Positions 4,669 to 56,900 of a stretch of 64,000 nt of DNA are shown here, piece by piece. Below the pieces are notes generated by a model. It did not search any database and was not told where the DNA came from. It saw only the letters and a list, made by a program, of their open reading frames with translations. The stretch comes from Lycocorax pyrrhopterus obiensis (lineage: Eukaryota; Chordata; Aves; Passeriformes; Paradisaeidae). The first letter of the stretch is position 1. Each line of letters opens with the position of its first letter. Location: the NCBI GenBank assembly GCA_014706295.1, contig JACSVZ010000016.1, positions 3,081,168 through 3,145,167 of the forward strand. The letters run 5' to 3'. Made by a program: the position numbers and the translations under genes.

Positions 4669-4708
4669 CCAGGAACTCGGTCCCACTGCCGGGCGGAGCG
4701 GCGTGGAG

Positions 4709-5293: not shown

Positions 5294-5327
5294 AGCGGCT
5301 GAGCTTTGCCAGCGGCTGAGCTTTGCC
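5294..5327. repeat. 17-bp exact tandem duplication
   Basis: The unit agcggctgagctttgcc occurs twice in a row at the downstream edge of the CpG island. Confidence 0.85.
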
Positions 5328-5839
5328 AGTGGCTGTACCGGAGACAGTGGGAGCGGAGGAGTGCTCTCAGTGAGAGGATGGCTGAGGAGGAGCGGGAGTA
5401 GGCGATGCTGTGGGCAGTGCTGGGGAAGATGCTGGGGGTGGTGGTGAGGGAATAGAACTGTGGGGTTAACTATGATACTGGGGAGCGTGCTGAGGTGATG
5501 GTAGGGAAAATGGAGCCTGAGACTTGGTCAGTGTATAACATTAGAGTGAGGTTCCTTGACACATCTGGAAGGCATTTCTGTAAAGAATTGAGAAATGCGG
5601 TGTGCAAGGAGGGCCTAGCATACTTAGAACGTGTTGGCAGGTTCAAGGAGAACTTCAGATCAAGGAGAGAAAAAAGATGCAGGTAACTCTTCAGGGGAAT
5701 GAGCCAATTTCCAAGAACCTCACATGAGAGCTATGTGTTCTTGCTTGTCACAGTTGACCAGTTGAGAAATCATCACTTTCCTGCTGTGCTGCGACATCCT
5801 AATCCTCCCTGATTTTGCAAAAAAACCCGTCGTGTAGGC

Positions 5840-24111
<18,272 letters not shown>

Positions 24112-29907: not shown

Positions 29908-29995
29908 TCAGTCTGTGTGAGTGTCCTTCTCCTTGGGAAGCAGCAGGCTCGACCTGGCCGGAGAGCTGGTGGCTCTTTTGATCACCTCCATCCAC
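29908..29995 (-). CDS. FARP2: FARP2 last coding exon (stop codon)
   Basis: After the split arginine it reads WMEVIKRATSSPARSSLLLP and KEKDTHTD, then TGA at 29908-29910. Human FARP2 has WMEVIQGASSSAGRAPS here; the extreme C-terminus differs and is about 10 residues shorter. Acceptor gtcttttcttggcag. Confidence 0.95.
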
Positions 29996-32900
29996 CTGCC
30001 AAGAAAAGACATGAGAAAAGCTTACCCCTCACTCACAGATAACCTTGTCCTTTGGTTATGAGCTGTACCCCTTTCCCAAACCTCCCAAAACAGCCATTTT
30101 CTTTCTTTTACAGGGCTTCTGCGAAATTAACTCTTCAAAGGAACAGCTTGAGATGTGGTAAATACCCTGCAGAACATGGTTGTCTGTCCAAGTAACAGGT
30201 CTACAGTGCTCTGAACTCCAGAGAACTCTCATGAGAGCTCACTGTGTTCTCTCCTCAATGTTATCAAGGATGGCAAGGTGACAATAATTATTGCTTTTCT
30301 TAACAGTAAATTAGGAAATAGGTAACAGCCTTGCCCACGTGGAAGAAAGCAAAGCAGCAGTGAAAAAAGCAAGACAAATCCACTGTGAATTAGACATTTT
30401 TCCCTTGAAATCACTACATGAGCCCAGTGCATTAAAGAGCACAACTTACAGCTCGGGTAGCTGATACCTAAGCTGTTCACAAGTGTGTGTCACTCTCCCA
30501 AGGAAGGGGGACATGTGACACCTCAGTAAAACCACATTCCAAAACAACCACAGCAGGACCCAGCACAAGGGTTCTCAATGTAGCAGCAAAGTTTTGTATG
30601 TGGTGCATTTCACACACAGTTTGGACCCTCTGTGGAACCCCCTAAGAGAAATTAATTGTAATTATAGAGGATAATAATAAAATGTAATCACAGAGACACC
30701 AGCCAAGTGAAAGGGAGCCCTGCACTTGTTGCTCTCAGCCTTGTGTTATAACTTCTGCTCCCAGAGATGGAAGATAAAAACCAAAAAACTCTTTACAGAA
30801 CCTGGAAATCTGACTCCCAAAGAGCTGGTGGAGCTGAGCACCCCACAGCCCTTCCTCCCACATTGCTCCAAGGAAGCCCCAGACTCCTGGCACAAAGCAG
30901 AGCTCACAGCTCTAGGTGTATCTCCAGCTCTCCTCACACAGAGGAGGGTTCTGTCAGAGGAGGGATCTCCAAATATCATCCGTGGGGCAAGGAAGGGAAT
31001 GTTACTCCTGAAAATGTGCTGGAAGATCACTCAGACTAGGAGGAAAGAGAGGATGGGATGACCAACCACTGAGTTAAGAGCAAGTTATACACCAAGACAG
31101 AGAAAACAGAAAATTACCTCTCAAAGGTGTATTTGCTCTCAGCCCTGAAGAAATACACGTGGGACTTGAACTGCAGCTTGAAGACATAATCCTTCTGAAT
31201 CCCGTCCGCCTCCACAGGGCAGCTGACCATGTAGCCGAGCAGTGGGAGGCTGGCCAGGGGATAATCATCCTGCAAGAGCCCAAGAGCCCAGCCCTCAGTG
31301 CAAGGCACCCCTGCCATGCAGCCCGTGTGCCACAGGTAAGGGCTGTGCACTCTTGTGCAGGAGACAACAGGAGGACTCTCCTGCAAGGCCACCAACAGTT
31401 TAAAAGGAAACCTTCCCCCAAACTCCTTTCATTTTTTTTTATAGTTATTTGCTTCTGCTCCTCTGCCCAACACTGCCTCCTGGGCTCCCTCCTCCCTCTC
31501 TGCATCCTCTCTATGGAACTCGAGGCACAGATCTGACAAAAAAGGTAAAGTAACCCTCACAAAAGAAATGTGCCCTCAAGGCAAGAAGCCAGAATAACCC
31601 AGTTACTGGGTTAATAAACACAGTTTGTTTGGTTCATAAGATGAAAAGATTGTGCTGCACCATGGTTCATTATCAAGCAGGTGCTGAATGTACCATGGGC
31701 AGAAAAACCCCTGGAGTCCATCAGGCTGAGCTGAAGCCCAGCAGAGAGAGAAGTGGGCAAAGGAGGCCCAGAGGCTGCTGCATCCCTCACATCCTTTAGT
31801 CACTGCATGAGGAGACGTTTCCCCCTCCCCCAGACAAGGTCAGTACCATCAGAACTGGAAATCCTGATTAAGTTCCACAAGAAGCGCCCACAGCCTTTCA
31901 GAGACCAGCTTCTTCATGAGCTACCTCCTCTTCCACTTGTTACTCTCCTTCAAACAGCAGTGATTTGCCCCTGGAGCTGAAAGTCAAGGATCCCCAGGTC
32001 CCCCCAACACCCCGACCATCATCCCCTCACCTACACCTGCCCACCTGGTGTGTCTTGTAGAAGAACAAGCAGAAGTTGGTGAAGACGACCCACAGTTTCT
32101 GCCAGCCATTGCTGTTCTTGAACTTCCTCAGCAAATACCCAGAGAGCTGGTTCTGGCACAGAAGGAAAAGAGGGTTCCCATGAAATCCCAGGTTGCCATC
32201 CTGCTGCAGGTGAACAGCCCAGCGCTGCTCCTGCTCTTGCTCCCTGGGGTCAAAGGCCTCCCAGGTATGGGGACAGCCACCAGGCTCCATCCCTTTCAGC
32301 CACCCTTTCTCACATGCACAACACCCACATGGAACACACTGTGTGAGAAGGGAAGTAAAGCAGGACAGGAAACAGAGGACTGCAGAGCTGGGAGATAACA
32401 ACATGTGGCAGCTACACAAAGCCAAGCCAGCGTGGAAGGGGGGCTGCAGGGAGGGGAGCACCACTGCCTTGGGGTCAGCCAGCAGGATAAGGAATCCTAT
32501 GGCATGGAATGACAGTGCATGAATTTTGTAATTTGATAAAAAGACAGGATACATGGCAGATTTACAGAGAGAACCATTTTCTGAGGCATAAACAGGAGGA
32601 AATCCTGTCTTAACAAGGCAATGGTACAAGTCTGTCTCTGAGGACGAGCATCCTCACGTGAGCAGTTAGGAAGCAGGACATTTTCCTGGGCATCCCATGG
32701 CTCCTCCCCACCAGCACAAAATGTGAGAGGCATCTTTACCTGGATCATGCACAAGTAATCAGACAGGGATAGGCTCTGGTTCCGGTACCAACATACATGG
32801 GTGATTGTGTTGGGCCGTTGGGCCTGGCCCAGCAAATAGCGAGGAGGAAGCTCTGGAGAAACAGCAAGAGAGCAGAAAACTGAGCATAGAAAGGGGGAGA

Positions 32901-35900
32901 GAAAGAGAAAAACAGAACGTTAAGGTGAGAGGAGTGATGCAAGAAAGGTGGCTGTCAAAGGAAAATGGATTGTGAAAAAAATGATGGTGTTAGAACACGG
33001 AACAGATCAGAGTGAGAGGGAGTGCAAGAGCTCACACATTCAATCCCAGAACCTGTAGCAGGGTGGGCTTGTTATCCATGCACAGAAGTATGAAATGGTC
33101 TCTTTCCCAAGGTGTCAGCAGGGAAAAGCCAGTCCCCTCCAACAGAAACCACAAGAGAAGCCATCTCGAGTGTCCAGTGTCTGTACCTCAAGCCCAGGTC
33201 ACATCTATAGCACTTCCCTTACCAAGCTGATCCACACAGGCTCTACATCAGAAAAATGCAGGAGCTCCAGTGCCCAAACTTTTAACTCCAGTTAAACAAG
33301 TGCCTCAAGAGCAGAGCAGGATAGGCAGGCACAGACACATGCTGCAGCCCCCTGCCCCATTGACCTTCTTTTTCTCTCCATGTCATTGAGGGTCCTTCCC
33401 ACTTCTGGAAGTCTTCCAGCCATGCCAGCCTCCAAGAAGGTGTCCTACCCTGCCAAACTGCTGCCTAAACTAAAACTGTAGAGCAGTGTAAGGAGTGCTG
33501 AGCTGATCTGTCTGGAAATCTGCAGGATTCAGCACCCCAATGTGCCACCAGTGCTGCCCTGCACTGTGAGTAACAGCAAGGCCACAGGTACCAGCGGCTC
33601 AAAGAATCCCAAAAAAGGTTTGGGTTGGAAGGGACCTTAAAGCTCATCTGGTTCCACCCCCTGCCATGGGAAGGGACACCTTCCACTATCCCAGGTTGCT
33701 CAGAGCCCCACCCAACCTGGCCTTGGACACCTCAGTGGGCACATAATAAACATCTCTGCTCAGCATCAAATGATGCTGCCATGGAAAGACACTGGACCGC
33801 TCAGTCCTGCCAGTGAGGGAAGGGCAGAGAATTCCAACTGAATTCCCTCTTCTTGATTCTGGGTGCAGTACAGCAGCTAACCAGAGCTCAGTACAGCACG
33901 GTCAACCTCTACAGGAATATATCATGGATAGGGAACTTACAATCATAGAACCATTAAGGTTGGAAAAGACCTCCAAGATCATCAAGTCCAACCTTTGACC
34001 AAATCCCACTGAACAATACAGCAAAGTGCCACATCCACACATTCTTTGAACATTTCCAGGGATAGTGGCCTAATCACTGCCGTGGGCAGCCTGTTCCAAT
34101 GCTTAACTACTCTTTCCATGAAGAAATTCTTCCTGATTCCCAACCTGAACCTCCACTGATGCAGCTTGAGGTCATTCCCTCTTGTCCTGCCCCTGTTCCC
34201 TGGGAGCAGAGCCCAACCCCCACCTGGCTGCCCCCTCCTGTCAGGGAGTTGTGCAGAGCCATAAAGTCCCCCTGAGCCTCCTTTTCTCCAGGCTGAGCCC
34301 CCCCAGCCGCTCCTGGTGCTCCAGCCCCTCCCCAGCTCCGCTGTCATTCTCTGGACACGCTCCAGCCCCTCAATGTCCTTCTTGTCATGAGGGGCCCAGA
34401 ACTGACCCCAGGATTTGAGGCACATCAGCAGTGCCCAGCACAGGGGGATGCTCAGTGCTCCAGCAAGCAGGATGAAACCCAAAGGAGCAATTCAATCCCA
34501 GGATATCCTGGGTTGCCTCTAAACTTTCCCTGCTTTGGTCCCGCCGCCGAAGCAAAGCCGTGCCGCACAGGGAGCGGAGCGTGAGTACAGACACACAGAG
34601 GAGCACAGAGGGGACAGGCATGCAGTGGTGTCGGATGGCCCACGCTCTCCCTGGACACAGAACCGCTGCCGAGGCGCAGTGGGAGACGGAGGCCAAGGCA
34701 GGGTGGACAGAGCGAGGCGAGCGCTGCGCCCTCGGTACCTCGACGGCCACACTGTGGTCGGCCATGGAGACGCTGGTGTTGCGGTACCAGCACACGTGCA
34801 TGGTTGTGTTGGCACGGTGGTGGCTCTGCCTGTCCAAGGAGCTACGGGAGGAGTGAATGTCATCTTCGGACTCCTGTTCTACAGAGACCTCATCAGAGGA
34901 TCCTGGGGGAGGAGAATTGGGTAGTGGTTTAAGAAAACCGTGCAATACAAAAAGCAGGAGAAGCTGGGGTTCCTGAGAAAGGCTGTTTTCTCTTGCCGTG
35001 GTCCAGTTTTAAGTCAAGCTGAACTGGTGACACAGCTCCTATGACCACTCTAAGCACATCAGTCTGGGTTTCATTACTCAGTTCTGCCTGGGGCAGCTGA
35101 CTCACAGGATCAAAGGATGATTTGGGTTGGAAGGGACCTTAAAGCTCATCGGGTTCCAACCCCCTGCCATGGGCAGGGACACCTTCCACTAGAATAAAAT
35201 CACAGAATGGTTTGAGTCAGTGCTGTGTCGAACAAACAAAAATGACCACATTTCATCTTGAGTCAAGGAACAGGACAGAGTGCTCCAAGAAGAAATCCTC
35301 CATGTTTCAGCACAGCCATAACACCACCAGACAGGCACAGGAATACTGGGCTGTGAAAGCTGACCTTCAGAGACACCACATTTTGGACAAAAAAAATTCA
35401 CCACATGGTTAAATTGAGAAAAATCTATGTAAAAGGTGACTTAAGGACACACTTAAGGACTTAAGTTGTTATAAAATTAACAACTCTGCAATGGGAGCAT
35501 CTCTGCTGCATTTAAAGCTACCTTGAACATCAGTCTAGGAAGACAAGCATATCTCTTTTGATTAAAACCAAAGCCCAATTAACTCTCCATTATCATATGA
35601 ATTATAAAAATATTTCATTTATGTCATCAAACTTGCAAAAGGAAAAGCAGAAAGGACAGGACAGCTGCTGCTTTCCAAGGAGGCAGGGAACAGCACTTAC
35701 TGTTGGAGCGGTTGCACACGGAGTTTTCCAGAAGCATCTCGGATTTCTCAGTAGATTTCTTGGCCATTTCAATTGCCACATTTAGGTCTTCCATCCACTT
35801 GCCCATCTCCAGGCGGGTACTGCAAGGGAAGAAGTGGGAGTGAGGATCCACCAGCCCAGAGCTGTGCCCGGGTGCTGAAGGCACAGGTCACTGCCCAAAA

Positions 35901-38900
35901 CAAGGGACAGTGTCCTTCCATTAGATAAATAAAAACAAAATTAGAATTCCTGAAAAGCAGGAGCTTTCCAGAAAGGAAACTGACCTCATACAGCCTCCAT
36001 CCCTATATTCAAGCCTTGAAACAAGACTAAACTAACAATTAAACACTTGGACTTTACAGCAAATAAAATGAACTGACAGCTGGCAGGGGTCAGGAGAGGA
36101 ACTCTGGAGATGGGGGATATGAGCCATGATGTTTTTGAAGGATAAACGGCAGCCTGAAGCACAGCCCATCTTTTCAAGGGCATCTGGGATGTACCTGACA
36201 TCTCAGGTGAGTAAAACCCAGAGCACAGGAAGAGGAGGCTTCCTTCACCCCTCCCAGGATCCACTACAGGGTGAGACCTTCACAGACCTTCAAGGTGTAT
36301 CAGTGTCCACAGGGATGCAGCAGTGGAAGGTTTGGCTTTAGACACAGCCACAACATTTCTTTGTTTTGGTAACCAACTCTTTTTTCTGAAAGTTTTTAAT
36401 TTAGACTGAAAATTCCACACATGGTCTAAGCCCAGCAGCAATTTTTATTTTTGACAGGTAACCTTTGAGCTATTTTTAAGTCATGACAAGGTAAAACTTA
36501 CATTTATTTTTTCAAATTTAAGAATCTTTCCAGCACTTATGACTCACAGCTGGCTGAGAAATGGTTGATCTTAAAAAAACCTGCATTTTCAGGTGTTAGG
36601 TTGGAATTAAAAAAAATACATCTGCATACCAAACATATTGGCTCCTGTGCCATTACACATCTGATTGATAAATATACTGTAGTAGTTATTTTACAAGAGC
36701 AGGTCATCAAGCAGTAAGAAACCCTATGATTTAAGGCTGAGATTTAGTGCTCCCACCCTGCATCGTTGGCATTCCTGATTACAGCTGCCTTTTTACAGCA
36801 GACTTGCAGAAAGACAAAAACTCCTAAAGCTGATCCTGAGACCAGGTGTAGGAGACATCCTAAGTACAAAAAGGCACCAAACTCACTGCACAGGGATAAT
36901 TTAGGCTGAAAAGAGATTGTTTTCATTGCCAAGTCAGCCTTTAATTTTTCCTCTCCCCAGCTTCCTCCATGAGATTCTGCAGGAACTCTCCCCTCCTCAC
37001 ACCAATTCACATGTTCTGAATTTTAATTCTTTCGAGTCTCTAAAATATTTGTATGCTTAGATTTTTGTCTCCTGAAGTGGTTTGAAGGATGACACTGGCA
37101 ACTCCCAAATAAACAAACAGAACAGCAAAATTATTGCTGCTGTTTGTGTTTTGGGTCAGATAGAGAATCACAGGATGGTTTGGGTGGGAAGGGACCTTAA
37201 AGCCCATCCAGTTCCACCCCTTGCCATGGACAGGGACACCTTCCACTAGCCCAGGCTGCTCCAAGCCCTGTCCAACCTGGCCTTGGACACTCCCAGGGAT
37301 GGGGCAGCCACAGCTTCTCTGGGCACCCTGTGCCAGGGCCTCACCACCCTCACAGGGAACAATTCCTTCCCAATATCCCACCTAACCCTGCCCTCTGGCA
37401 GTGGGAAGCCATTCCCCCTCATCCTGGCACTCCAGGCCCTTGTCCAAAGTCCTTCCCAGTTTCCTTGTTGGCTCCTTCAGTTCCTGGAAGGCCACAATGA
37501 AGTCACCCCAGAGCTTCTCCTCTCCAGGCTGAACAATCCCAGCTCTCCCAGCCTTTCCTCCCAGCAGAGCTGCTCCATCCCTCTGCTCATCCTGGTGCCT
37601 CCTCTGGGCTCTCTCCAGCAGCTCCACGTCCTCCCTGTGCTGGGCCCCAGGGCTGGGGCAGCTCTGCAGGTGGGGTCTCACCTGAGCGGGGCCGAGGGGC
37701 AGAATCCCAAACCCTTCCCTGCTGCCCACGCTGGGATCAGCCCAGGATAAACTACTCCTTCCCAAAATTCAACATTGAAAAAGGAGATGTGGGGAGTCCT
37801 GGGCTCGTTTTGAAGTCCAGAGGATGCATGAAACATCCCTCTGGCTCTGCAGCACTTGAGCAGTAACTTTCTGGAGAAGGAATCCATCAAAGCCACAGGC
37901 AACTGAGGAAAACTAGGATTACCTGGCTGCCACCACGATGGTTTTCTGTGCAGAATAGATAGTGAAGCAGTGTGGCACAGACCATTCATTCTCACTCTCC
38001 TCCACCTGCAGGAAAAGAAAAGATTTCTCTCATCAGTGCTCAGTCACCAATAAACACTAGAACTGTCCTGTGCTGGCTGGGACTGGAGACAAACAGGGTT
38101 CCAACCCGGTTGCAGAAGAGCAGAACAGCAACTCTTTGATGAATACTACCTACTTTCAAGTCTATTTTGGCTCTATACAAAAATCTATGGTGTGTTTCTA
38201 CTGCAGGAGCACAACACCACTTCCAACAGGGCAAGGAAAGGAAGGGGCTGGAGCAGATCTGGCTCATTACTCACCGGAGGGTCGAGCACTATCAGCTGCA
38301 AATCAAAGACAGAAAGAACAATCCTGTTAGAAAAGGTGTGGGGAGGCAGGAGGATTGGTTATAAGCCAAGGTGTGTGCAGGAGAACAAAACACCAGGATA
38401 AATAAATGCCTGTTTCCAGATCAGCCTCTCACAGCAGTGTGAAAATGAATGGACAAGAGGGTGTGTTCCAGCTGCTTTGCTAATGTGGAAGGAACAGACT
38501 CATCACCTGCAGATAAAGAAAGCTCTGCTTGACACACATCAAGGTCCAATTGCTGCTGAGACTGGCCTTGGAGCAGCTTGTGGCTTTGGTCCTCGTGCCC
38601 TGAAGGAATTCCTCAACCTGCCTTAGGCAAAGACATTTCCTTAACCCGGTGATGCAACATGGAACCACTTACCAACATGCCATGCAGGGAGAGGTGTCCG
38701 TGGATTTTGAACTGATTTGTCCCAGTGACCCCTTTGCTTGTGTACAGTAACATATCTGAGAACTGGAAAGGCAGGAAGAGAACAATCAGTGCTCAGAAAG
38801 CAGCAGGCAGGGCCAAGGATTTTTTGATATCTCATTAAAAAATCTGTTGTTTAAAGGCGACTGTAGATGCATGAAAAATGCCATTTCTCAGCTTGTCTCA

Positions 38901-41900
38901 GTCAGTTTGGCCAACTACCCTAAAAACCTCTCTCTTGTTTACTCATAAGAGAGGAAATTAAATTTTTTCATTCTATTAAAACTCCGGGCCATTAAGGAAC
39001 CAAGCTGACCAGAGAGTACTGCCACAGTCATGCCCTCTTAAAACATTGCTTAGAGTGAGTTTTCAGTCTCAGGTGCTGATTTTCAACACAAGCACATGAA
39101 AACACACTTCCCCAACAACTTTATCTTGAAGACTTTGGGTTTATAAAAGTCAGAAGCAACACCCACCAGAAAGAACATCCGCTGCTGTAAGCCCTTCTTA
39201 GTGAGCTTGTACAAGCAACCTTCCCGGATAAACTCCTGCAGTGGAAAAGAAAAAGTCAGACAATGTTGGATCCTTCCTGGCTCAAGGGAATTTTATTTTC
39301 ATCCCAGAGTACACAGATGTTGATTGGTGCCCAGCAATGATCACTAACAGATTCTTAGAGGCCCGATGACATTTTTCCTTCCTTTTTTGTGATGTGAATC
39401 ACCTCCTTGCTGCAGCCAGCATTTAAATCAGTGAAGGAAGAGAAGGGAAAGGAGCAGAATTCCTGTTGGACACCAGCAGTTCACCTATCACACTTACATC
39501 CCACTGCAGTGACTGCCATAGCATCCCCAAAGCACATGCGATGCTCCTGTATTTATGCCCAGTACATCTATCAAAAACAAAGAAACAAAAATCCAGGCAG
39601 GAACTGCACAAACTCCTGTAACACAGAGGCCCCCACACCAGCTGAGCCCAGTGCTGTGGCTCTCTCCATCCCTCCATTCTCTGAGGCTGCACCAGGCAGG
39701 CACAAGCAGAGCTGGGAGTGGATTTCCAGTACGACACACCAGTTCCCACTCACACACAGAGCACCACACCCCAGTATACCCAGTATCTGTACTGGAAACA
39801 TGAAACTGCAGCCAGAGGTTAAGCAGAAGCATTTCTGATCTATTCCTCTGAGTATCACCAAGGTGATGGTCCCATCATCCATGGCATTCACTAAGAGACA
39901 GTTACATGAAGCCTTTACAGTTGTCCCGTAGACCAGGGGGGCAGCGATGGCAAATCCACGCCTCAAAGGCACTTCCTTGGAAATAACACCAATAAAGGCT
40001 CTAAAAACTAAGCAGAGGCACTTACCCTGCCAGGTGCTGTGAGATTGTCTATCCCAATCAGGTCGTGCTGCAGCTCTGTAAGCTTCTGGAAATTCTCCAG
40101 GCGGATGAGGCTGTGCTGCAGCTGTGAGGTCATTTCTGTGACTTCCTTCAGCGCGTCTGTGTGGAGAACAGCACCAATGGGACCAGAGCAGAGCAACCCA
40201 GGCCACCCATTTCACCCCTGGAAAATTGAATCTGAAATTTAGATCTGAAATTTATAGCCAATTTTAGAACAGAATAGTTCAGTTGGAAGGGACCTACAAC
40301 GATCACCCAGTCCAGCTGCCAACTTCTTTAAGTGTATTTTAGAGCAGGGTAAATAGAGACTAGCAAGCGACTTCACAGCGTTTCCTATGCTTCTGGAGAT
40401 CATTGTGTATCTCAGATTTTGCTTAAACAAAAAGTATTTACCATGTGGCTGAAAGTAAATGAAAAAAAATCATATCCAACTATTTCTGCCAAAGATTACT
40501 TTGTCATGAATGGAATTTACTACACACGCTTTTGATGCTACAAAACAATCATTTTTTTGGTCATATTTTTACATCTAAATGACAAAGAGTTTGTAAAAAA
40601 ACCCACTTTTTTTTCCCCTGCTAAAACAGGAGACAAGAAAAGGACTAATTTTCCAGCTTTGGTTGAAACATTGGGATCCATTGTGAGAAAACCACTTCCT
40701 GGAATGCCAGGAGAAAGCAGCACTTCCATTAAGTTTGTGGACATAAGTGAACATAAGCGAACACAAGTGTTCAAGGCCAGGTTGGACGGGGCTCTGAGCA
40801 CCCTGGTCTAGTAAAAGGGTATCCCTGTCCATGGTGGAAGGGGAATGAGATGGGTTTTGAGTCTGTTATTCTTGTCTTCCCAGGGCACGGGCAGGATTTT
40901 GGATGTCCGTGGGAAGGGGTGCTGCCAGCAGGACACGGCTGGGTGCTCACTCACTCCGGCAGTCGGCGAAGTCCCGGTGCTCTGCTGTGTAGTGCTTGCA
41001 CAGCCTCCCCAGGATCAGCTTGTAGTGCATCAGTCTCTGGATGGGTTTGAGCAGGAAGGTGTTGAGGGGCAGGTAGCAAACCTTCTGCAGCTCAAACTCC
41101 TTATAAACCATCTCCAGCTTCTTGAGGCGTTTGGTCGCTTTCTCCAGTTCTGTCAGGACCTCGTCGTGCTTCTGCAGGTAACTGGTGAACTCCTGTGGAA
41201 TTGGACAAGAAGTTACTTGGATCAAAGGAAAACAAGTCTCTCATAATTAAAGAAGGTGGCAGGCAGCTCCCAGTCAAGGTCAAAATAGGGGTGTGCATAG
41301 CACTGTGCCTGTGCCTGCTGGGAATACCAAATGCTGGTAGTGGAAACAGCAGTCCCACACTCCTGCACTCCCATTCAAGCCACTGGTTTTGATTAAATAA
41401 TTACTCCACTACTACAGCACTAATGTAACTGTCCTACAATGGCACTCTGCTCCAAATAAAGTTGACTTCGTTTCAGAAGAAACTATTCTGCCTTTAAAAA
41501 ATACGTATATTTTTAAATTAAATAACCTTATGAATCAAGGCCTCAATAGGGGAGATAAATAAATAACTTTTGTTTTCTGCTGAATAACCAACAAACACCT
41601 TTCCTCAAGGTAAATGTAGGTGGCTAAATAAGCAACAGCGATTCAAAGCCTTCCTGCAATTATTTTACTCTGTTTTCTTTTTAAATTGTTTCTCAACAGT
41701 AATTGTCTGCAAGTTACTTCAAGATTGACTGAAACAGAATGGGTTTAGATGGGACACTGGAAAGAAATTCTTCCTTGTAAGGGTGCTGTCAGATACTGGA
41801 ATCTTATAGTGCATGGCTTGAACATTGTTATGAAACTTCTGCCTGTTATGGCAAAACTGTATAGAGCAGCTACAAGCACAGGAACCCAGCCCTCCCTGAA

Positions 41901-44900
41901 GATGCCTGACTGGAACTTTGGACTGTGAGTTAAGATGCCTTGATAAGATAAAGAGAACACTATTGTTCATCATCTCAGGCCTAGGGAGAAGTAAACAAGG
42001 CTGAGGGAAAGGAATGCATCCACAAGAGAGCCAAACCCAGCAGAAAATCATCCCTGGCTGGGTTTGGGGTGGGGGAGGCCACAGCCCAAGAGGCCAGGTT
42101 TGCACAGACCCCTGCAATGAAGGCGAGAGCAGGAGAGTTCTGGGTGCATGGCAAAACCTCTGGGCAGAGGCAGTGAACACCCATCCTTCCTTACACAAAC
42201 TGGACCAGTTGTTAAACCCCCCCACCCCAGGAAGGCCACATCCATGGGACAGTCACATGGGAGGCAGCTGAGGGGGTGTCATAGTCCATCAAAGACTCCC
42301 CAAAGTTCTCCCAAAATTTATTCCTGTGGCCTTGCACCACAGGACTGCACATGACGCAAAGTGATTCAGTCTGCTGCAAGAGACAGTGTCAAACTGCCCC
42401 CCCATCCAGGGAGGTACCTGGGCATTCCCACCTGGCCTGAGCATATATTAATCCATTGGATTCTATGGTTTTGGGGCTCTATGTTTTCCCACCACCAAGA
42501 AAGCCAGCTGGAGAGGATCATCAGGACCCTGGTGGGATCCATGGAGTGGTGATACTTTCTTTAATCTGTCTCTGTCACTCTCTTTCTGTCCCCCCACCTC
42601 TTTTCTTTCTCTTCCTTCTTCTCTCTCTCTCTCATATTTACTATCAAATAAAGCCCATACTGTTGACTTTGGCATATGGTCTCATTTGCACCTCAATTCA
42701 GGCAGAGGCATTTCTAATAATTTTAAGAACCAGACTATAACAGGTGGGGAGGCCCTGGCACAGGGTGCCCAGAGAAGCTGTGGCTGCCCCTGGATCCCTG
42801 GAAGTGTCCAAAGCCAGGTTGGACGGGGCTTGGAGCACACTGGGCTAGTGGAAGGTGTCCCTGCCCATGGCAGGGCGTGGGATGAGATGGGCTTTAAGGT
42901 CCCTTCCAACCCAAACCCTCCTGGGATTCTGTGATTAATGGAAATATTGACCCTGAGCTCTGATCCTTGACAAAACAAAACAAAAAAACCCTCAATAATG
43001 CCAAAATTCCATGTCTTTAATCCTGTATCTACCTTCAGAGTGCGCATGTTCCTGAGCATGACATCTCCAATGCGTTGGTAATCCCCTTTCACGTGAGCAT
43101 TGGTTCTGCCTTCCCTGGAACACACACAAGGAGGAAAGAAGAAGGCAACATACATATGAGGGATCAAGAAATTTCTGTTTTCCCCTTCCATCTTCCCCTG
43201 CAATTCAAGAGATAATCTTTAGCCACTTGATGTTCCTATTTCACCGTTCAGATTGAAAGCTTGGTATATTAAATATTAAATATTAAATATTAAATATTAA
43301 ATACTAAACATGGATGCAGCATAAAACAGCAAACACAAAGCCATGCTTAGAAAACTAAGAAAGGACTAGAAAGGAATTTGTGTGAAAGCCTGTTTGGGAG
43401 TTTTACGTTTCAGACCTCCAAATAAATGTCATAACATGACCCCACCTGATTTTGTGGATTTATTTTTGTTCATACTTTGTTTACGTTGACCACCTCCTTT
43501 TGAAAGGTACTTATACTGTAATATGTAACATGCCAGGTCAGGAGAAAATAACACAAAGGTTAAAAGACTAAAAACACGATCTGTGAAAAAAACTGCATTG
43601 CAAGAACGGAACTCCCACCTTAATCACAAAAATGTTTCCTAGATTTTCACCTGGCAATTCATTAACTGGAAGGTGTGGAGAAAACACACACACATTATCT
43701 TTTTGATCTTGTATTCCTTCTTTTTTCTAAGGCTTGAGAGACACTATCAGCTTGTATCAACAATTGGACTTGACAATCTTAAGGGTGTTTTCCAACCTAA
43801 ATGATTCTGTGATTACAAAACCCTCTGTCTGGTGCACAAATCATACAACCACATTATTATATACAAGGCAAAACTTGAAAAATGGGCTTTGTGCAAGGTA
43901 GTTGGTACTTTTTTAATAAGTTTAATTTCGTAAAAGATTTCTCCTTGCTTCTCTTGATGTGGAAATACCAGGTGTAGTCTGGTTTTGACATGAGGATATA
44001 GAAAAAGGTCCCCCCCTCACTTACCAGAGTGAGAGCCTTTGTTCAATCTCCTTCAGAAAGCCTCGATGGAACTCATAGATGGGGTCTATGTTGGAGAAGA
44101 GCAGTGTCATCAGGCCCTCTGGCATGGCATTCTCCTTGATCACAGCACTGCGGAACCACTGCCAGAAAACCAGAAATTCTCATCAATTTCCCTGTCTCAG
44201 AAATTCATTGTTAGTATGAAAATTCCTGCTCCTGCAGTGATGGGGGAGGAGAAAGTATGCACAGGGTAACAGCAGGAAGGAAGAAGAAATATTTAGGGAA
44301 GGCGTAATTCGTGAAAAATGAAAAGATGGGATTTTTTTTTTCCTTGCCAAATATTAGGAAGATGAGGCACATGGCTGGCTCTGGGCACAAGCTTGTTTCT
44401 GAATGCAATGATGGGATGGTTGGGGACAGCTGAGTGACAGTCAGTTACCCAGTGGCTGCCCCAGCTGCTGCCACTTCCACGCAGATACAACTGCTCTCAT
44501 ACACCTGGAGCCCTGTTACTCAGCTGAAGACATCTCGTTGCAGGTCACATTCCACACTTTATCTCTTCCAGTTCCCCGCTTTCTGCAGGGACGGGGATAT
44601 TACAAAAATCCTCTGAGGTACCAGGTATTCCCCCTTCTTTTAGGAGAAGTGCTGGGAAGCCTGTAGGAGGAATTGGAGTGAGATGGTGCTCAATGAGCTT
44701 GCAGAGAACACCTCGACTGAGGCCACGCAGCATTAAGGGAGTCAAGCTTTTCTTTGATGAAATTAAAACAACAGCTTATAGAAAGGCAACAGTCCCAGTG
44801 CTCAAACATGGAGTTCATGAACAAAAAAGCTCTTTTAGAAACACAGCTAAGAAGTTCATGCTGCCCTCCAAACCGGGACTCACTTGTCTGTTCTGGGTGA

Positions 44901-47900
44901 AAGGAGGAGGAAACAGAAGCAACAAAACAAGAAAAAACTCTTCAAATCCCCATGGGTTCGATGCCCTTTGCAACTGTCATCTGCTCTCAGATCCAAAGGC
45001 ACAAGGCTAAAAGCTTCCCAAGGAAAACCATGGAGAAGACGGCCAGGTTATAAGCAGAGCTGGCAGCTATCACTGAAACTGAATGCAAAACGTTTTTAGG
45101 CTGTCCCTGTTCACGGTTTTCAGACCAAAAGTTTGCCTAAGCCATCAGGATGGCACAGGATGTAGCTGCTGGAGCAACAATGGAAGCCCAGAGAAGGTAT
45201 CTGCTCTCCCACAGAAGGAGCTATGGAACAAGGAAGGGGACCAGCTACTTGGCTCATGGATTACTCTACATCACAGGAAGAAATTCCAAGCTTTTCCAAC
45301 CTAACAATCACAAATCTGTTAAAAAAAGGGAAAAGAAATAAAGTCAAACCCACTTACCACTGTAATAACCTCCAGGTCCTTTAAATAGGTGCGTTCTGTG
45401 GCAAGGATCTCCTTGGCTATGAAGTATGCCTTGTCGGTGGGGTAGCGCTGAAAGGACACACAGCCACCAGTCAGTGCTGAAATACAAACCTCTGTTTGCT
45501 ACTGGGCATCAGCTCAAACCTGACATCCACTTCCCCTTGCTGTGTGCAAAGGGAGCAGCTCCTTACTAACAGGACATCTCTTTGTTCAGTATCACATTCC
45601 CAAATACTGACTTTATTACAAAATATTCTTTGTATCGCAAGAGTATTAAAAAATTGTGTCAATTATATGTCAATTATCATAGAACCACAGATGGTTTAGG
45701 TTAGAAGGGACCTTAAAGTTTATCTCATTCCAACCCCCTTCCCACTATGGGCAGGGACACCTTCCACTACACCAGGGTGCTCCAAGCCCTGTCCAATCTG
45801 GCCTTGGACACTTCCATTACATGAACTTCCATCTCAGATCAAGGGAGCACTTTACAAAAACATGGAAACAGTTATTCCAAGATGCCTAGATTTTAAACAC
45901 TTCTCCAACCAAACACAGCACAACAGATTTGCAAACAGTCCTTTTCCAAAACTATTCATTTCCACTTACAGCTTTTACTCAAGCTTTTACTCCTTTGAAG
46001 ACCATATTAATTAAACTGCAGCAGTTGGTGGCTGCATGATTGCTCTGGGCTGCTATTTGAAGAGAAGACAGAATGGATATGGAAGAACAAAGGAGTGAAA
46101 TGGTGGTAAGAGATGTTCTGCAGCTGCAACAACACAAAATCAGCCTGAAAACATAGATTACTGAAAATAATGTAATATTAAGGAACTAGTCACTCTCCAA
46201 GGTAAGGGACTGCTCACTATGCTGTGCTGTAGTTCCATGCCAAATGCCACTGAGTTACATCAAAATTTGGTCTCCTCCATCTCTGCCCCGCCTGAGGGAA
46301 ACACTGCTTTGAAAATCCTTTCTTCTGTTTCCTTGTATGCTCTGAGTGAATTAAAAATTCTCTTTATAGAGTCACTTTGAGATGCTTCCAGTGCTGTCAG
46401 CACAGCTAGTGAGTGTTTCCCAATCCTCCAGCTCAATGCTGCCCACGGAGGAGACATTCTCCTGGCTGCTCAGTAACCTCTCTATTGAGTCCACAGAGAA
46501 CCCCTGGAGGTGTGTATCCTCAAATAATTAATTCTGAGGCTAAAAGCCACTGTGTAGTCTCTTTTCAGGTTATTTTATGCTAGTTATTGTAGCTCCACAC
46601 ATCAGCCCCCTCCCTGGAGGGACCAGAGGACATACTTCTACTGACTCCACAGCCATCCTCCTAACTTCAATGTACCTGTCTCAGGTATATGGTGTCAGGC
46701 AAAGTCCTACCTAACCTTGGCTTTTTCCCTTGGGCTATTTACCTGACTGCAGTCTCATATGCTGTCGAACCTCAGTGGGCATCCTTCTCAAAACAGCCTC
46801 TTCCCAAAGGAAACAACATCATTTTTGTGCCCTCCCTGGAGCCTGAGGTGACACAGTTTCACCATCTTGCTTACCAGCCTCAGCAGTGCCTTACATGACA
46901 GGAGAGTTTCTGCTATCAGGGATGTTTTTACACAGCTCTGGGTGCATCCCCTTCTGGACTATGTACAGGATCCTACTGCACTTCTTTGAAACCTTACAGA
47001 GCATGAAGGTGTGTGAAAACATGGGAGCATGACTTTTACACGGGCAGGTAGTGATAGGGGGAACTTTTTAAAACCTAAAACCACACCATGGTCATAACCC
47101 ATCACTTTTCATAGCCTGCATGGATCACGTTTTTCACCACCTCTGAGCATTTCTGCAGGTTTTAGCTTCATTCTCCAGCTGACTGTGTGCTAACCTGAGG
47201 CACAAGAGATGCTTTTCTTCTCCCAGGCATCTTCTCTTCCTTTCTCCCTCCCCAACACATCAGCCCTTTCTGTTTATTCTCAGAAGTTCCTGCTCTTTCC
47301 AAATTGCTCCCTGGTGGAATTTAGTGCCCTTAACTTGCTTTTTTCCAGCCTTGCACCAGGCCTAAGTGCATTCCTTGTGCTGAGTGCTGGCAGCAGCTGC
47401 TGGGCAGACCCTGCATCAGAGGAGTGGAAAGGCTGTCACAGTGCACAGGGGCCCTGCCAAAAACCTTCACTACTGCTCAGGCTCTGCAAGGGGAAAGAAA
47501 ATCAGCTCATGCCTCGAAAAACCAAACACTAGAACTCTCTGGGGTGGCAGTCTCCTTCTAGAGTCCAAAGAAAATGTTTCTACAACCACAGCAGGCATCA
47601 AGGCAAATATCCCCACTTGGAAAAAACGGGTGTTTCACCTATCATGTACCTGGAAACCTTCAACACTCACCAGATGCAGCAACCCCAGCTTGTGGTGAGT
47701 GAAAAGCTCTACTCTACTCTACATTATTTTTGTAATGGCCAAAAATGTTTAAATTTTCACTTCAAACACCAGGCTTCAGAAGTGTTAAAAATAACTCTGA
47801 GTGGGGAAACTCCCCCAAAAAGCCTAGCTTCAAGGCCCTTTTTTAAGTGGGTTGCTACATTCCATTAGAAAAAGGAACAGGGAGAAATCTACCAGTATGA

Positions 47901-50900
47901 TGAAAGAAAAGCACAGTGATTTAAAAAGAAAGAAAAAACCTCATATTTCTCAAGGTTTCAGTATAGGACCACCAGCACCATGGCAGCACAGAGCAGACAC
48001 CACACATTGTGAGGGCTGGAGAGTTCGCAGAACATGCCCTGATTAACCAAGTGTAACTACAGCAGTACCACCTTCAAATCAGAGCTCTAGTCAGAGAGAT
48101 ATTGCAGGATTACATTTTTCTTGTACAATAAAGTTGCAAAGCTCCTGTGAAATTTAACCAATTTAACACTGGTTTCCTCCTGGGTCTGTTTCACTTAAAA
48201 CAATGTCTCTGAATAGACATCTAAGCCTTGGAATGCTCAGGAGTTGATCAAGCTGAAGATCAATACAGTAAAGAAAAGTTCCCTTCTAAGGAGTCTCACT
48301 TTTACAAATTAATTTCAGCCTGAAGAACAACAGAAGCTGCCAAAACACCAGACCTTGCAGAATGCAGCAGAAAGGGTTGGGCTTCACGTTTGAGTCAGCT
48401 AACACAGACTCTGCTCATTATTTCCAAGCTGTAAGGATAAATGAGAGGAGTTATTTTTAAAATAACTATGGGAACTCATAGTAGAGTGATCAGCCAAAGT
48501 TATAAACTCCACCTCAAAAAGTCTAAATGAGACAGGGAAGCTGCCAGTTGGGTGGGTTGTCTGCAGCTCAGCTCCCAGTTACTGGTTAGACCTTCCTCTC
48601 TCTGGCAAGCACTTACACCACATCCACACCATGGGTGTTTCTCAACAGCATCACAGAAGCGCCTGGAGCTGCCCAAGAACGTGGTAAAGACACCAAAGAG
48701 CAGGGGCCTGTGACCTTCTTGCCTGAGGGTCCTGATCCTGACAGAGGTAAGACAACCAGAACACTGGATGAGGCAAGCAGAAGAGCAGAAGCAAAGACCA
48801 CACAAAGTGGTTTCTTCCTCTCTGTGACTGTATGGAAAACTGTAGATCCCAGTGTGGCCACTGACTCCACACAGAACTGAGTTTGGACAGTGGAGCCCTC
48901 CTTGCACTGCAATGGAAGGTCCTGGATCCCTCTCAAGCACCCAAGAGTCAACAAACCTCTCTGCAAGCAAGGCAAGGAGTGCAGAGAGTCTTCTAGAAAA
49001 ATGGTCATGGAACTCTACTGTTAGATGGACTTCTCTATCCTACTGGAAGAGATGCAGCAAATCCTGAGCTCTGCATGGCAGTGAGGAAAACCCCACATCA
49101 TGTGGCAGAGTCCCTGGTTAAAGCAAGCAGTGCTCACTGGTAGGCAGGAAGAAAGCATTCCAGGCACAGAGCAGTACCCAGACATAAGCACATCTTGAAG
49201 ACCCAAAGCTGTTCCTGGTTTGAGACTCACTGCACCTGCAAAAGTCAGGGGTATTTTTGTCCCCCTCTTTCCAGAAAGTGAGACTCAAGCTTCTGCAAGG
49301 CCAAAGCACTGTCCACCTCTCTCTGGACAGAAGGGTCAGCCATGGAAAGGACAACTTCGACAACACGGCCAGGTCTGCTGACCAAGCCCATGATGAAATG
49401 GGTGTGAGAGAATTCACACTGAGCTCAGGTCCTCCACAGTTCAAAGGGAACACTTCAGGACCTCTCCAAAGGTTCTGTTATGGTCAGAAGGCATTACCTG
49501 GAGGAACAATGTACGGTGAGATGGACCAACGAGACCATGACGAGACTGCATGGGAAGGAAGGAACCCAGGAAACACACAGCTTATACATTAACAAATAAG
49601 GATCTCTGAGGATCATTGTGTCCAGCTCCCCACTCCTTGCAGATCCACCCAAAAACAAACCATATGACCAGGGGCATCATCCAGATGTTCCTTGATCTTT
49701 GTTAGGCTTGGTGTCGTGATCACTTCCCTAGGGAACCTATTCCAGGGATCAGCCTCAGGGTGAAGAACCTTTCCCTAATGTCCAACCTGAACTTGTTTCC
49801 ATTCTGGGTACAACAGGTGGATTTTGAACACAGCTCCCTGACACACTGCTCCTGCTAAAACAGGGGGAGGTGGTCCCAGTGGCCATGCCAAGAAGACAAA
49901 GAAGATGCCAGGAGGGCACTGGGCACTCCTGCCACAACAGCACAACACATCCAACCAGCCTTCAGCACTGGAGTTTTACCACAGCCACCACAGAATAAAA
50001 CACAATCAGCATTCAGCACCCAGCAAGCACAGCTCCTCACCTGGCACCTTCAGTGCCCAGCACAGCTCCCACCTCACACCTTCAATGCCCAGCACAGCTC
50101 CCACACAGCACCATCATTCCCCAGCTACATCCTGATCTTACCTTCCGTTTCATTTCGTCATCCTCTTCTATCCTGGCCCCGCCAGCATCGCTGAGGACAG
50201 GGCTCAGCAGAGGGGATGAGCCCTGAGTGACTGCATTCAAGTTCACCTGAAACGCTGGGGTCAAGCCTAGGGGACTCTTCAGCACAAGGGAGGAGAGCTG
50301 GGGATGGTCCACGGGGAGGCCTGGGTGGGAAGACAACAAGGAAACGGAGTGGAAAAGGAGAGAAAATTATTTCAAAGACAGCGCAAATAACGTGATTATC
50401 CACTGTTACAGCAAACCAGAACTGCAATCTCATTTATTTTGAAAAAAGTAAAAGAAAAAGAGCAAAAAGGCATACAAATCCAAAGACTTCAGCGTGTATC
50501 TCAAAGTAAAGGGAGCGTTCCCTGCATCCCAGAGGTTGCATGGCAGTACAGTAAGGACAGACACTGCCACAACCGCAGCTGAGGGAAGCATAAACTGCTT
50601 ATTGTCAAGGAAAAAGTGCTGCTGAGTAGCAGCACAGTTCACAACACAGGGTTATACTGCAGGGACAAGAATACAGCTTTTAATTTTTGCTTTTCAATGT
50701 AAGAGTTACTTTTCAACACGGGGAAAAGCTAGGACAAATTATTCCATTACTTGCCACTCCAGAAGACAAAGTACATTAGAAATACATTCAGAAATCAGGG
50801 TATCTCCAAAACCAGTCCAAAGGGAAAGGAAAGCCTATTCCTATACAAAGAGGGAGCATGGAAAAAACTTCATTCCTGGCTTTTGTAAGTATGCGAGCAG

Positions 50901-53900
50901 AATAATCTCAAGGAAAACCATTTTGCAGCACTGAGTATTAAGTGGATGGACACAAGCCACAGCTAAACCTGTTAGAAGCAACAGGTACCACTTTGCTTTA
51001 GATTATTAAACATATTTTTCAAAAAATTATTAGTATTATTTTTTGTGGACCCTTTAGAGATTTCTGACACATCACAGTGAATTTAAGCCTCCTCTTTTCA
51101 GCATGTAGACCCCCCCTCAGGGGTGAAAATTACCATTCAAGATCAGCTTTTTTGGGCCAAAGGAAGGTGACAGACACACCACGCCCACAGAATTCCTCCT
51201 AACCTCACATACTATTTTTCTGATGTTCCCTGTGATAAACAAATGAGTTTTCTCAGAGCAGGCAACTAAACAGGTATCAGCACTTAAATATCTACAGCTC
51301 AAACACCCTCCCAAGCCTCCCCAGCAGGATTTGTTGTGCCACAAGTGCTAAACCACCCGCCCAAAGACAAATGGGGAAATCAACAGCCAACCCCAAACCG
51401 CCAAATCATCATTTCCCAGACTACTTAGAAATCATCACAAAAGGCTTTAAGAAAACCAGCCCTCACAGATATACAGTAACTCCTCACACCGTCACGGGTG
51501 CTGCAGGAGGAGCTGGGAGCTTTCGATTCCCAGCTGCTCCGGCTTGGAAAGCACACCCAGGGCGAGGCAGCCCCAGCCTGTAATTCCACATGGACAAACG
51601 CAGGAAGCTAAACAGTGCTGCACTCGGTCACCTGGAAGAGATTCAGATCATCCAGGCTGCCGAGTTAACTATTTGTACACTGGTCCAGCACCAATTCTGG
51701 AGCAGATTTTGGCTTCTCCCTGAGCATTTTGTCCATTCACATTGCTTTTAATATCACCCCAGGAAAGCAACGCTGAAGAAAGCATTTGTTTCACCTATCC
51801 AGGCACAGGATTCAAGTTTGCTTTTACATGCTAGGAATGCTGAAAAAACAGCTTCCAAACAAATGAGCTTGCAGGGGTGAGTGAGGAGCTTCTTTAAGTT
51901 CTTGGAATTTAACACGAAGTAGCGACAAATTCCAGAATCTCTAACTTGAATTGCTTCCAGACAGCCTGAAAGCTCGGATACAGTGGGAGCAAGTGGGATA
52001 TAAGTTGCTATAAACCACCCTGCTTTTTTAGTTGAGTTGTTCTACCTTTTATCTCCTCCAACAGAAGACGGCCGGTAAATTAATTTCAAACATAAAATCC
52101 AAAAGCAAGAACCTCTCCCTAAAGCCAGAGTGACTGACGGAAATGAGAGGCACATTCACAGAATCATAGAAGGGTTTGGGTGGGAAGGGACCTTAAAGAC
52201 CACCCAGTCCCACCCCCCTGCCATGGGCAGGGACACCTTCCACTAGCCCAGGCTGCTCCAAGCCCCATCCAACCTGGCCTTGCCACTGCCAGGGATGGGG
52301 CAGCCACAGCTTCTCTGGGCACCCTGTGCCAGGGCCTCACCATCCTCACAGGGAAGAATTTACTCCATCTAAAACTACCCTCCTGTCACTTCCCAATTTT
52401 TTTTTTCTAGAAGAGGCAGAAAGAAGTTTCTAAGAAGACTTTCTAAGAAGTCACAGAGCAGCTCAGGTTAGCTTTTTGGCTAACATTTGTTTAATTAAAT
52501 GTTTGATCTAAGCTCAGTGTGATGGTGTGTCTTGGCAGATGATATTACAAGTGAGGACTGAAATTTTCATTCTCATAACCCAAGTTTTCTCCACCAGAGC
52601 AGCACAGGAGGACTCCAGGCAAGCAGGTAGGATGTACAGCAATTCCTCATTCTCACGGAGAAGGATGGTAAAGGGACAAGCCATTTCAACTGCTGTTCAA
52701 TGTAGCAAACTCCTAATTACGTAGAAATATTGATGTGAAGATCAAAACATGTGAACGATTCCCTTTGACATCAAACCCTGGTGCTTCAAGGTCTTCCCTT
52801 CCCCACAGGCAGCATCCTCCAGTTATATTAAAAGGGATTATTCTTTCAGAGGGATGTTTCTGTGTTTCAACGTTCTGCATGAAGTGGAAATTTGTTCTCT
52901 ACAAATAAGTCACACAAACATCCCAAACTGATGTCTGTAAATGCTGTGAGCACAAGCCAGGCCTCCATGCAATGACGTGAATGAATTCAATGCTGTAGCC
53001 CAGACTGTCAGACACAGCTGCATTCTGTACACAACACATTTCTGCCTTCACATCACACACAAATTCACTTAAGGCAACATCCAAAAATGCATCAGCTCGG
53101 TGTAATACTCCACATACTCAAAGATCTTTAAGTATACTAATAGTTACATTACGTAGTGAGAAACACATATCCTTAAGCAAACAAACCCACAGTTTCATAA
53201 AGACCAGCACACACAGAATAGAAATGAAAACTAATCAATAAAACATTGCAAAAGCACTGTAGTATGCAAAAGCACAGCTACAGAATCTGGTGAGAATGCT
53301 GAGAATATCCTCCACAGCTACTGTGCAATATTGGTCACATAGAAGGAGGCTCTGTTTGATTTTCACTGAGATAACAAGCAGAATAATAAGATAACAAGCT
53401 TTTGGCACCACTTCCCCGTTATTTTTTCAGCAGGTATTTCCATTCTTCAATCTAAATTCAATTCCTACACCGAAAGCCAGATTTGAGAGTACAGGCTGGC
53501 CAAAACAAGAAGTACAGGTTCTGTAAGCTTTATGCCTGGACGCTTAAAATGATTCAAAGACAGACAACTAAAATAGTACCCCAATAATACTGAGCATTAT
53601 GGGATGGGCAAAAGCTATGTGAGGGTCAAATGTCAGCAACGGCTCCTTATCAAATGGAGCACCTCTTGCATTTCACAGAAAACATTTAAAGATACAACTT
53701 TATTATTATATCATTGCTGTTACCTACTTCAAAAGGCAAGATTATTTTCAGACTAAAACCCTGCAGGGGCTGACCAGAGGACGATGGGAGCCTGCTCAGA
53801 TCCTCCCTTCCACCCAATGCCCTGCTGAACCCATTGCATGCACAGACCAAATGATTATTTCTAGAGTGAAAGTACATAGTGTTACTTCTAGAGTGAAGTC

Positions 53901-56900
53901 ATTAGCAAGCTGATGTACTACAAGTAAAATCCTGGATATCTTCTCTATCTTCCTTATTTCAAAACGTCACTACTAGCAGATTTTTGCTCTGCAAATCTTC
54001 CCTTTAAAAAGATGAGAAATAGCTGGGAGATAAGAGAATCTTGAAAATTATCTAAGAGTCTAAAAAACCTAGGCAAGAGACTTTAAATTCAAACATCTCT
54101 TTTTTATCCTCAAACAGGTACAGGTCACGTGAAACATCAAAGCACATTTACAGCACTTGGCACGTGTCCCAGTGCTGCGTACCTGTGAAGTCACACCTAC
54201 AGTGGTACCAGCAGGATCCTAACGCTGGCCCTGGTTTTATAGTTACACCCATAAAACAGATGAAACAATCCCAAACAACCACCCTTCTTTTGCCACCTGT
54301 CCAACTTGTTAAAGCCCTGTTTGCAGGGCAGAGGATTTATCTAAACACTGGTCACAGACACCTGAAGGAGAATCTGCCAACTAGAAAACATGCAATTGCC
54401 TTCACATGCTACGTTTGCAAAAAAGGACAATCTTCCAATAAAAACAGATACACAGGAGAGAGAGTTCAAGGGACATACCCAGCTTAAAAGAAAAGGTCTC
54501 CACAATAAATATAATTCCTGCAAAGAAATCTGAGCTTCTAGTGCCATTTGTATCTCAAGCAAAAGATCTGCACAAACCAGGAATTTGAAACCCATACACC
54601 AGTGTTTGCCTACTGTGCTCTATTTTCAACAAAGTGGTACAGGGGGAAAACTGTGTGGAGAAAGCTGGGAATAAAACTGTAAGATGCCTTGGCTAGGAGA
54701 ACAAATATTTATTCTATTTCAAAGATAAGGGTAATGAAAATAAAGCTAAAAAGCCCATGTTGTCATTTATATCAAAGTTTTCCTTGTTTTATTGCATAAA
54801 CAATTAAAATTATGAATTAGTACAAATCTGTAGGTTCATAATTGGCAATCTGAACAGACATAAAGATACTCAAAACCCCAACATATAATTCAATAAACAT
54901 TTACCATATAAAAGATAAAGTTCAAGAGATCAATGTAAAAAATTCCAGCTCTCTTTGTTCGAATGTAATCTTTCCCTGGCAAGAGTAGCACCTATGGAAC
55001 TGGGGAGTCCCTCTAACCAAGGCACACGTACCCCTGTTCGTACCGATAAACGGGAATTTTGTGCTTCGAGCAACCCCGGAACGTTTTGACTTTGGAAAAT
55101 GTACAGGAACACCTTCCCACAGAGCAGGTTCAACGAATCACGTTCCAAATATGGACTCCCAAACCTCCAGCTCACCCACTGGAGTAATCCTACGGGAGCC
55201 CACGGGCAGGTAATTAATTAGGCGGATGTTATGATGCATTTGGAACTGTAAAGTCTCCCCATCTTCAGACAGAGAATGTATATGTACAGCCATACATATA
55301 CACACAGCCCTTGTGACAAGTGAGGTGTAAGAGCCCCTAAAAACGGCAGGCAATGACAGCTAAAGGACTGTATTGAGACCTGTGATTACACTCATTCAGC
55401 ACTGAGTAATTATGGCTTAGAACAGTTTGCAAAATGACAATAATGGGAATGACTTACCGACAGGTTTGCACCAAAAAAAGCATAAAATTATAACAACTTT
55501 TATTAGTGTCTTCACAAAATCTTAGCCCTACCAAGACTTGCAACTAGACAAATCCTACCACCACCAAAAAAAAAAAAAAACCCAAATAAAAACTCCCAAC
55601 ACCAAACCATAACCAAGCCACCAAAAAAAACCAAAATAAAAATCCCTTAAACAAAATCACCTATGACCACAATACAAATAAGCACAGGAAAAAAGAGATC
55701 AATACTTGGTATTATCCAGATTATTCAGCAACTCCGAAATATACTGGAAATTAAAGTGAAAGTTGAGAGTAGATTGATATATCACCCTATTCCACCCTAA
55801 GATAAAATATGGCAAGTCCTGGGAATACACAGCATGTATTATTTTACTAATGAATACTTTAAAATTACAAAGTCTACGCACAATAGATAACACAGGTTAG
55901 TAAATTTAACAAAGCTTAACCAGGTGGTGGATAGGTCAGAGAATATTCCATGACCCATGTTTTGTGCAAATTAAGTTTCATTAACTGCATAGATGATGAT
56001 CAAAAATGCTCTGATGTAGCGCTTTACATTTGATAAATGTGTTTAAGCATCAGAAGGGTTGTAAGTACACACATAGAGAAGTGCAGGTGGGGATTAAATT
56101 GCTCACTCAAAACACCCATTTTGCTTTCTTTCAGTCGCACTGCAACCTTCAGCTGAGCACTGCAGAGAGTTAAGCCCAGCAGCCTGACTCACTGGGAAAA
56201 GCCACTAACACTGGCATGCATCCTACAGCTGCATGTGTTTGCTAAAACAGAACAGAGAGACGTGGAAGGATGGAAAACAGCCCTGCTTCACCCTGGAGCC
56301 CTGGCACACTCCCTTTGCCGAGCCAGCGCTGCAACAGCTGCTGGGTGCACTGTGCAGAGCAGGAGAACACATCTGGAAAGCCCTGTGGTTCTCCTACTGG
56401 AACAGCACAGCACTAAAATCGGCGCACTGGCTAGAAATGTTCGTACCTGTGTGCGTCCCCAGCTCCCCACGGGGTGGGAGGCACAAAGCCAATGTGCGAG
56501 GATGTACCTGTGATGCCATTGTGGGTTTTACCCTTTTTTTCTTTTATATATTCTCTATATCCTTTACACATACACTTGTAGCTTTGTAGCTTCCTATTAT
56601 AGCTTAGCTTCAGCATTTTCCTAGGCAGAAAGACAAAAATTCCAGGATCTCTGTGCTGTCTTGGTTCTCCTTAGAAACCAAGGCTGAAACCAGCTTTCCC
56701 AGACATACTTTTGTAAGCAGGGCCTGGATCTCATCCTAAGGGGGGAGAACCTAGAATGTACTAGAACTGGGGAAATTACTTCACTGGGCAGGTTCCTAAT
56801 TGGGGGGTTCTTGTCAGATATGCTAATTTGCAGAATCTATATAAATTGTACGTGCATCACACGGGGCGTGCATCTTCAGCCTTTTCTACCTGATGAATTT

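Follow-up and report, generated by a model that had tools for sequence, protein, structure and literature searches.

The end of the PH1-PH2 linker of bird FARP2 is encoded by a duplicated, probably mutually exclusive exon pair that has a counterpart in FARP1

The window, a stretch of 64,000 nucleotides corresponding to C1112:3081168-3145167 of the 1.10 Gb assembly of Lycocorax pyrrhopterus obiensis, contains part of the gene FARP2, in which two homologous exons, A and B, lie just ahead of the exon that opens the second PH domain (PH2). We propose, at a probability of roughly 80%, that A and B form a pair duplicated in tandem at the end of the linker between PH1 and PH2, that their mutually exclusive use is enforced mainly by the reading frame, that the pair predates the separation of FARP1 and FARP2, and that the swap of the arm preceding PH2 would tune closure by this domain. 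A pair of this kind in FARP2 had been put forward earlier from the letters of the window alone (hereafter, the original prediction).

The FARP2 exons were located with a FARP2 protein sequence, and their ends were then fixed by splice sites and phase. Besides A and B the window holds 16 of them, the first cut by the window edge and the last ending with the stop codon at 29908. Our analysis reproduced the coordinates, the phases (1 to 0) and the complete splice sites of A and B that the original prediction had given, and also its placement of a duplicated, phase-matched pair just before PH2: in the duck isoform P0031 a Pfam scan detects a RhoGEF domain as well as two PH domains at residues 761-854 and 930-1023, and exon B (residues 881-927) lies between the latter. 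Exon A has the acceptor cccccag/GA and the donor GAG/gtaccg (slashes mark exon boundaries), and the shorter form of exon B, B-short, has the acceptor ttctccag/AG and the donor CAG/gtaaag. The predicted HVCWYRN-type homology between the exons is borne out by a shared 27-residue core, with 13/27 residues identical (BLASTP E-value 2e-11, single comparison); the part common to both, R.NT..HVCW.RN.S.S..D, leads into PH2. A longer form, B-long, uses an acceptor 27 nucleotides upstream of that of B-short; its frame is open, its peptide starts IFCSLAVSPELPPRYLL, and its residues IFCSLAVSPE stand in place of the K of B-short. Annotated proteins of duck, swift, falcon and painted turtle include B-long as well as B-short, and the pyrimidine fraction of the last 25 bases before the acceptor is 0.84 for B-long and 0.80 for B-short. 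Scored with a donor matrix, the donor of A is weak (3.1 bits), compared with 7.8 bits for that of B and 1.2 bits for that of exon e3 of the same gene.

Joined to the upstream exon, e13, either A or B leaves the frame open as far as the FARP2 stop. A direct join of e13 to the downstream exon, e14, results in an early stop, A followed by B-short runs into a stop after 35 shifted residues, and A followed by B-long also breaks the frame. The claim that each mRNA can take only one of the exons thus holds, by frame, for the two main acceptors of B, but not for a candidate third acceptor at 32850, 2 nucleotides inside B-short, from which A and B would be read together in frame. We propose that the choice is enforced chiefly by the reading frame, with mRNAs that contain both exons or neither acquiring a premature stop and presumably being cleared by nonsense-mediated decay; which exon is taken may depend on the tissue. 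Exclusion by a short intron is ruled out, because the introns, at 587 to 1,886 nucleotides, are too long for crowding to explain it. Between 35700 and 32153 there are four copies of TGCATG, an Rbfox-type motif, where its density in the window as a whole would predict 1.0 (Table 1); we note this as a lead.

Table 1. Positions of the exons, motifs and neighbouring features (window coordinates unless a contig is named)
Feature	Position	Strand	Evidence or remark
Upstream exon e13, end of PH1, exits in phase 1	35701..35819	-	splice sites, phase
Exon A, 164 nt, phase 1 to 0, acidic Ser-rich arm and HVCWYRN core	34739..34902	-	
Exon B-short, 113 nt, phase 1 to 0	32740..32852	-	same peptide in annotated proteins of duck, swift and falcon
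Exon B-long, 140 nt, phase 1 to 0, acceptor tatgctcag/TTTTC	32740..32879	-	
Candidate third acceptor of B, cagag/CTT, 111 nt, phase 0 to 0	32740..32850	-	
Downstream exon e14, start of PH2, entry phase 0	32045..32152	-	splice sites, phase
TGCATG motifs around A and B	34624, 33082, 32751, 32318	-	one lies within exon B
FARP1 counterpart of exon B, 137 nt, phase 1 to 0	C1085:40358724-40358860	-	between FARP1 A and PH2 exons
Part of FARP2 in the window	29908..64000	-	exon ends by splice sites and phase
Protein kinase exon, STK25-like	15769-16113	+	best PDB match STK25, 107.4 bits

The proteins with A and with B have the same domains and differ in the arm that precedes PH2. In both FARP2 and FARP1 the A arm is 29 residues long, with a net charge of -5 and 9 Ser/Thr, in agreement with the acidic character ascribed to exon A. 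The five B arms that we counted are 12 to 21 residues long and more hydrophobic, with net charges from -2 to +2 and 0 to 5 Ser/Thr. The basic start attributed to exon B is seen in the B-short arm (net +2), but the B-long arm is neutral, and these charges rule out a basic start as a property common to B. In the proposed mechanism either exon would supply the core that runs into PH2, with the arm ahead of it being exchanged: 29 acidic, Ser/Thr-rich residues in A for 12 or 21 Leu/Pro-rich and approximately neutral residues in B. Exon B would thereby drop an acidic, phosphorylatable arm while keeping what is likely to be a docked core, and the switch may tune either the tightness with which PH2 covers the DH domain or the response of this closure to kinases, with a corresponding effect on autoinhibition and guanine-nucleotide exchange factor (GEF) activity. 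The FARP2 structure paper of He et al. (2013) is said to describe the inter-domain linkers as ordered. FARP2 and FARP1 share their domains (FERM, RhoGEF and two PH) and the linker core before PH2; the solved chains of FARP2 (4gzu) and FARP1 (4h6y) both match exon A over its full length, whereas exon B is matched through the core only. According to two papers (PMC6041286, PMC7005035), the solved DH-PH-PH structures show FARP1 and FARP2 in an autoinhibited state, and how FARP1 becomes activated is poorly understood; the first of these papers also states that the GTPase-binding site of FARPs is blocked by PH2 together with other elements. A second form of the linker, found in FARP2 from sharks to birds and paired in FARP1, would be a natural control on the question of how FARPs are activated.

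FARP1 and FARP2 are probably products of the vertebrate genome duplications. In the genome studied here FARP1 has a locus of its own, on the minus strand of C1085. Alignment of exon B to it revealed a counterpart, FARP1-B, with the acceptor gtggtag/AA and the donor GAG/gtaaca. As in FARP2, e13 of FARP1 exits in phase 1 and exon A has 164 nucleotides and runs from phase 1 to 0. With either A or B placed between e13 and e14, the frame stays open to the end of e14, the last exon joined; with both exons or neither it runs into a stop. This FARP1 pair, with its FARP2-like layout and phases, is new here. A tblastn comparison of bird FARP2-B with the FARP1 intron gives 65% identity over 23 residues (E-value 6e-8, 6-kb target), and its score of 80 compares with at most 49 in 200 mononucleotide shuffles. 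The FARP1-B core, QRPVSISYVCWYRMQSLSFYD, is identical to that of FARP2-B at 15-16/27 positions, to that of FARP2-A at 9-10/27 and to that of FARP1-A at 9/27. Neighbour-joining analysis of 12 cores recovered the split between A and B in 500/500 bootstraps and that between FARP1 and FARP2 in 0/500, a clear but small-sample result given 27 columns and one FARP1-B. Since A and B separate in all bootstraps and FARP1-B is nearest to FARP2-B, the exon duplication seems to be older than the separation of FARP1 and FARP2, and the switch itself would have arisen before the two genes parted.

The distribution of exon B was studied in the best 120 matches from each of three protein searches with totals of 153, 140 and 542, which together yielded 147 distinct FARP2-type proteins, each with a recognizable B segment. 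As B was part of the query each time, these models show its spread and not its frequency; they represent clusters at 90% identity, in which teleosts are over-represented. Most are named FARP2, some are hypothetical or PH-domain proteins, and P0051 is nameless. The groups represented are birds, squamates, turtles, axolotl, sturgeons, paddlefish, Polypterus, many teleosts and, with six proteins, sharks. The original prediction's view of exon B as undescribed could therefore apply at most to the literature searched, since the exon already stands in public FARP2 gene models, from sharks, ray-finned fishes and axolotl to turtles, lizards and birds. Among the matches listed there was no mammal with exon B and no FARP1-B protein, although in the 542-match search the latter could score below 97 bits, the lowest score listed. 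In Solea, P0144 has PH domains and exon B and is named solute carrier family 13 member 3; it is probably a fused gene model. The motif PPxY is present in exon B of 134/147 proteins; that B serves in general as a PPxY-type ligand for WW domains was rejected, the motif being absent from the six shark proteins, 6/7 turtle proteins, one flatfish protein and FARP1-B.

The original prediction's own test, which looked to relatives for stop codons in exon B or loss of the exon, comes out in its favour, by the conserved peptide and the FARP1 counterpart. When the window was compared exon by exon with ten species, B-long was 100% identical in Anas and Rhea, 98% in Pogona, 89% in Chrysemys, 87% in Danio, 85% in Acipenser, 83% in Pagrus and 79% in each of two sharks, with 66% in Ambystoma, whose protein has B-short and whose missing residues were counted as mismatches. 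The corresponding values for e13 are 90% (Anas), 92% (Rhea), 87% (Pogona), 79% (Chrysemys), 67% (Ambystoma), 62% (Danio), 59% (Pagrus), 67% (Acipenser), and 54% and 62% in the sharks. B-long is thus tighter than e13, for instance 87% versus 62% in Danio and 79% versus 54% in Chiloscyllium. Exon A of the window is identical to that of four fish models at 45-46/54 positions, and by these figures B appears to be conserved about as tightly as A, not more.

What precedes B in the 147 models bears on how strictly the two exons exclude each other. In 123 of them e13 is joined directly to B and A is absent, 105 having B-long and 18 B-short, the latter all from tetrapods (18/18). In 17 models A and B stand together in frame, and in the remaining seven the upstream sequence is odd. 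Strict exclusivity, as originally claimed, is contradicted by the 17. This sample covers forms with B, the form with A alone being represented by the solved chains. An alternative reading, in line with the 17 models, is that B acts as a cassette that mostly joins A instead of replacing it, by way of frame-restoring acceptors, either the extended one in some fishes or cagag/CTT. The join expected from this last acceptor is shown by the models P0022 and P0026. Yet the 123 models without A, the frame breaks of both B-long and B-short after A, the lack of any AG from 32880 to 33100 in the window that would open A+B, and the equal frame incompatibility of the FARP1 pair make this reading improbable. 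Still less probable is that B is a poison exon whose inclusion with A triggers decay and whose protein is irrelevant. The early stop that A+B produces with either main acceptor is what such an exon would give, but e13+B is open in both paralogs, and the conservation of the B peptide between sharks and birds, about equal to that of A between birds and fishes, tells against it because a pure poison exon needs no conserved peptide. Least credible of all is that B represents a relic in decay or an artefact of gene prediction, given the identities of 79% to 100% for B-long in two sharks and in Anas and Rhea, a FARP1 counterpart also with an open frame and splice sites, and one apparent transcript, P0051, whose 1,055 residues derive from a 4,013-base contig that is most simply an assembled transcript because it is too short for genomic FARP2.

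Several observations nonetheless weigh against a mutually exclusive, functional pair. The 17 models with both exons comprise 14 from ray-finned fishes and three bird models named hypothetical protein, and seven of the 14 are numbered isoforms in which B is extended by intron-derived sequence; exclusivity may thus be leaky in fishes. The seven odd models are two from Junco, four from Astyanax and P0060, which apparently carries a frame-shifted A. Nearly all models of the relatives are predictions, and FARP1-B, itself a predicted exon, is known from one genome only. Neither PPxY nor basic character is universal among B exons, and e10 and e14, at 96-100% identity in all ten species, are conserved above B. 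Finally, PMC6041286 reports the suggestion that FARPs are possible pseudo-GEFs, which would undercut the step of GEF tuning. Two groups of models are of separate interest. Teleost isoforms P0005, P0008, P0009, P0010, P0012, P0015 and P0016 bring A and B into frame via the intron-derived lengthening of B, by which this lineage may have escaped exclusivity. In the Junco models P0040 and P0041 the sequence before B resembles the intron after e9, and these are likely to be model errors.

The gene in the window is identified as FARP2 over FARP1 by 158 versus 151 bits, and the window's B-form protein is 91.6% identical to duck P0031 over 694 aligned positions. Near 15.9 kb, on the strand opposite to FARP2, lies the STK25-like kinase exon, which agrees with this identification, STK25 being the neighbour of FARP2 in human. 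At 4150-5530 there are long overlapping open frames on both strands, the longest of which found no match in a Pfam scan; this segment is possibly a GC-rich promoter region. An Rfam scan of the window at gathering scores gave no match.

We found no description of the A/B pair among the matches listed from the open-access literature. In human, an isoform of FARP1 that carries an insert of 31 residues is known. Alternative splicing of FARP2 is likewise seen in the ASCOT paper (PMC6952364), which gives a novel mouse Farp2 exon with reverse-transcription PCR primers; by our reading that exon is upstream of A and B, the reverse primer fitting the start of the e13 equivalent. The review PMC11876696 cites a variant by which the splicing of 'exon 20' in human FARP1 is altered.

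More tentatively, and at less than even odds, the ancestor of FARP1 and FARP2 might already have had an either/or linker exon that switched an autoinhibited Rac/Cdc42 activator between a form with the acidic, phosphorylatable arm of A and a form without it. Both genes would then have kept this switch, and of its two states the solved structures, being matches to A, would depict one. Mutually exclusive, tandemly duplicated exons are known in vertebrate genes such as FGFR2 (IIIb/IIIc) and PKM (9/10). The FARP2 pair resembles these in that the exons are adjacent and homologous, have equal phases, break the frame when both or neither are used, and swap a short segment. In contrast to the FGFR2 and PKM pairs, B of FARP2 has tandem acceptors 27 nucleotides apart and possibly a third, A and B occur together in frame in fish models, and the pair is found in both paralogs, FARP1 and FARP2.

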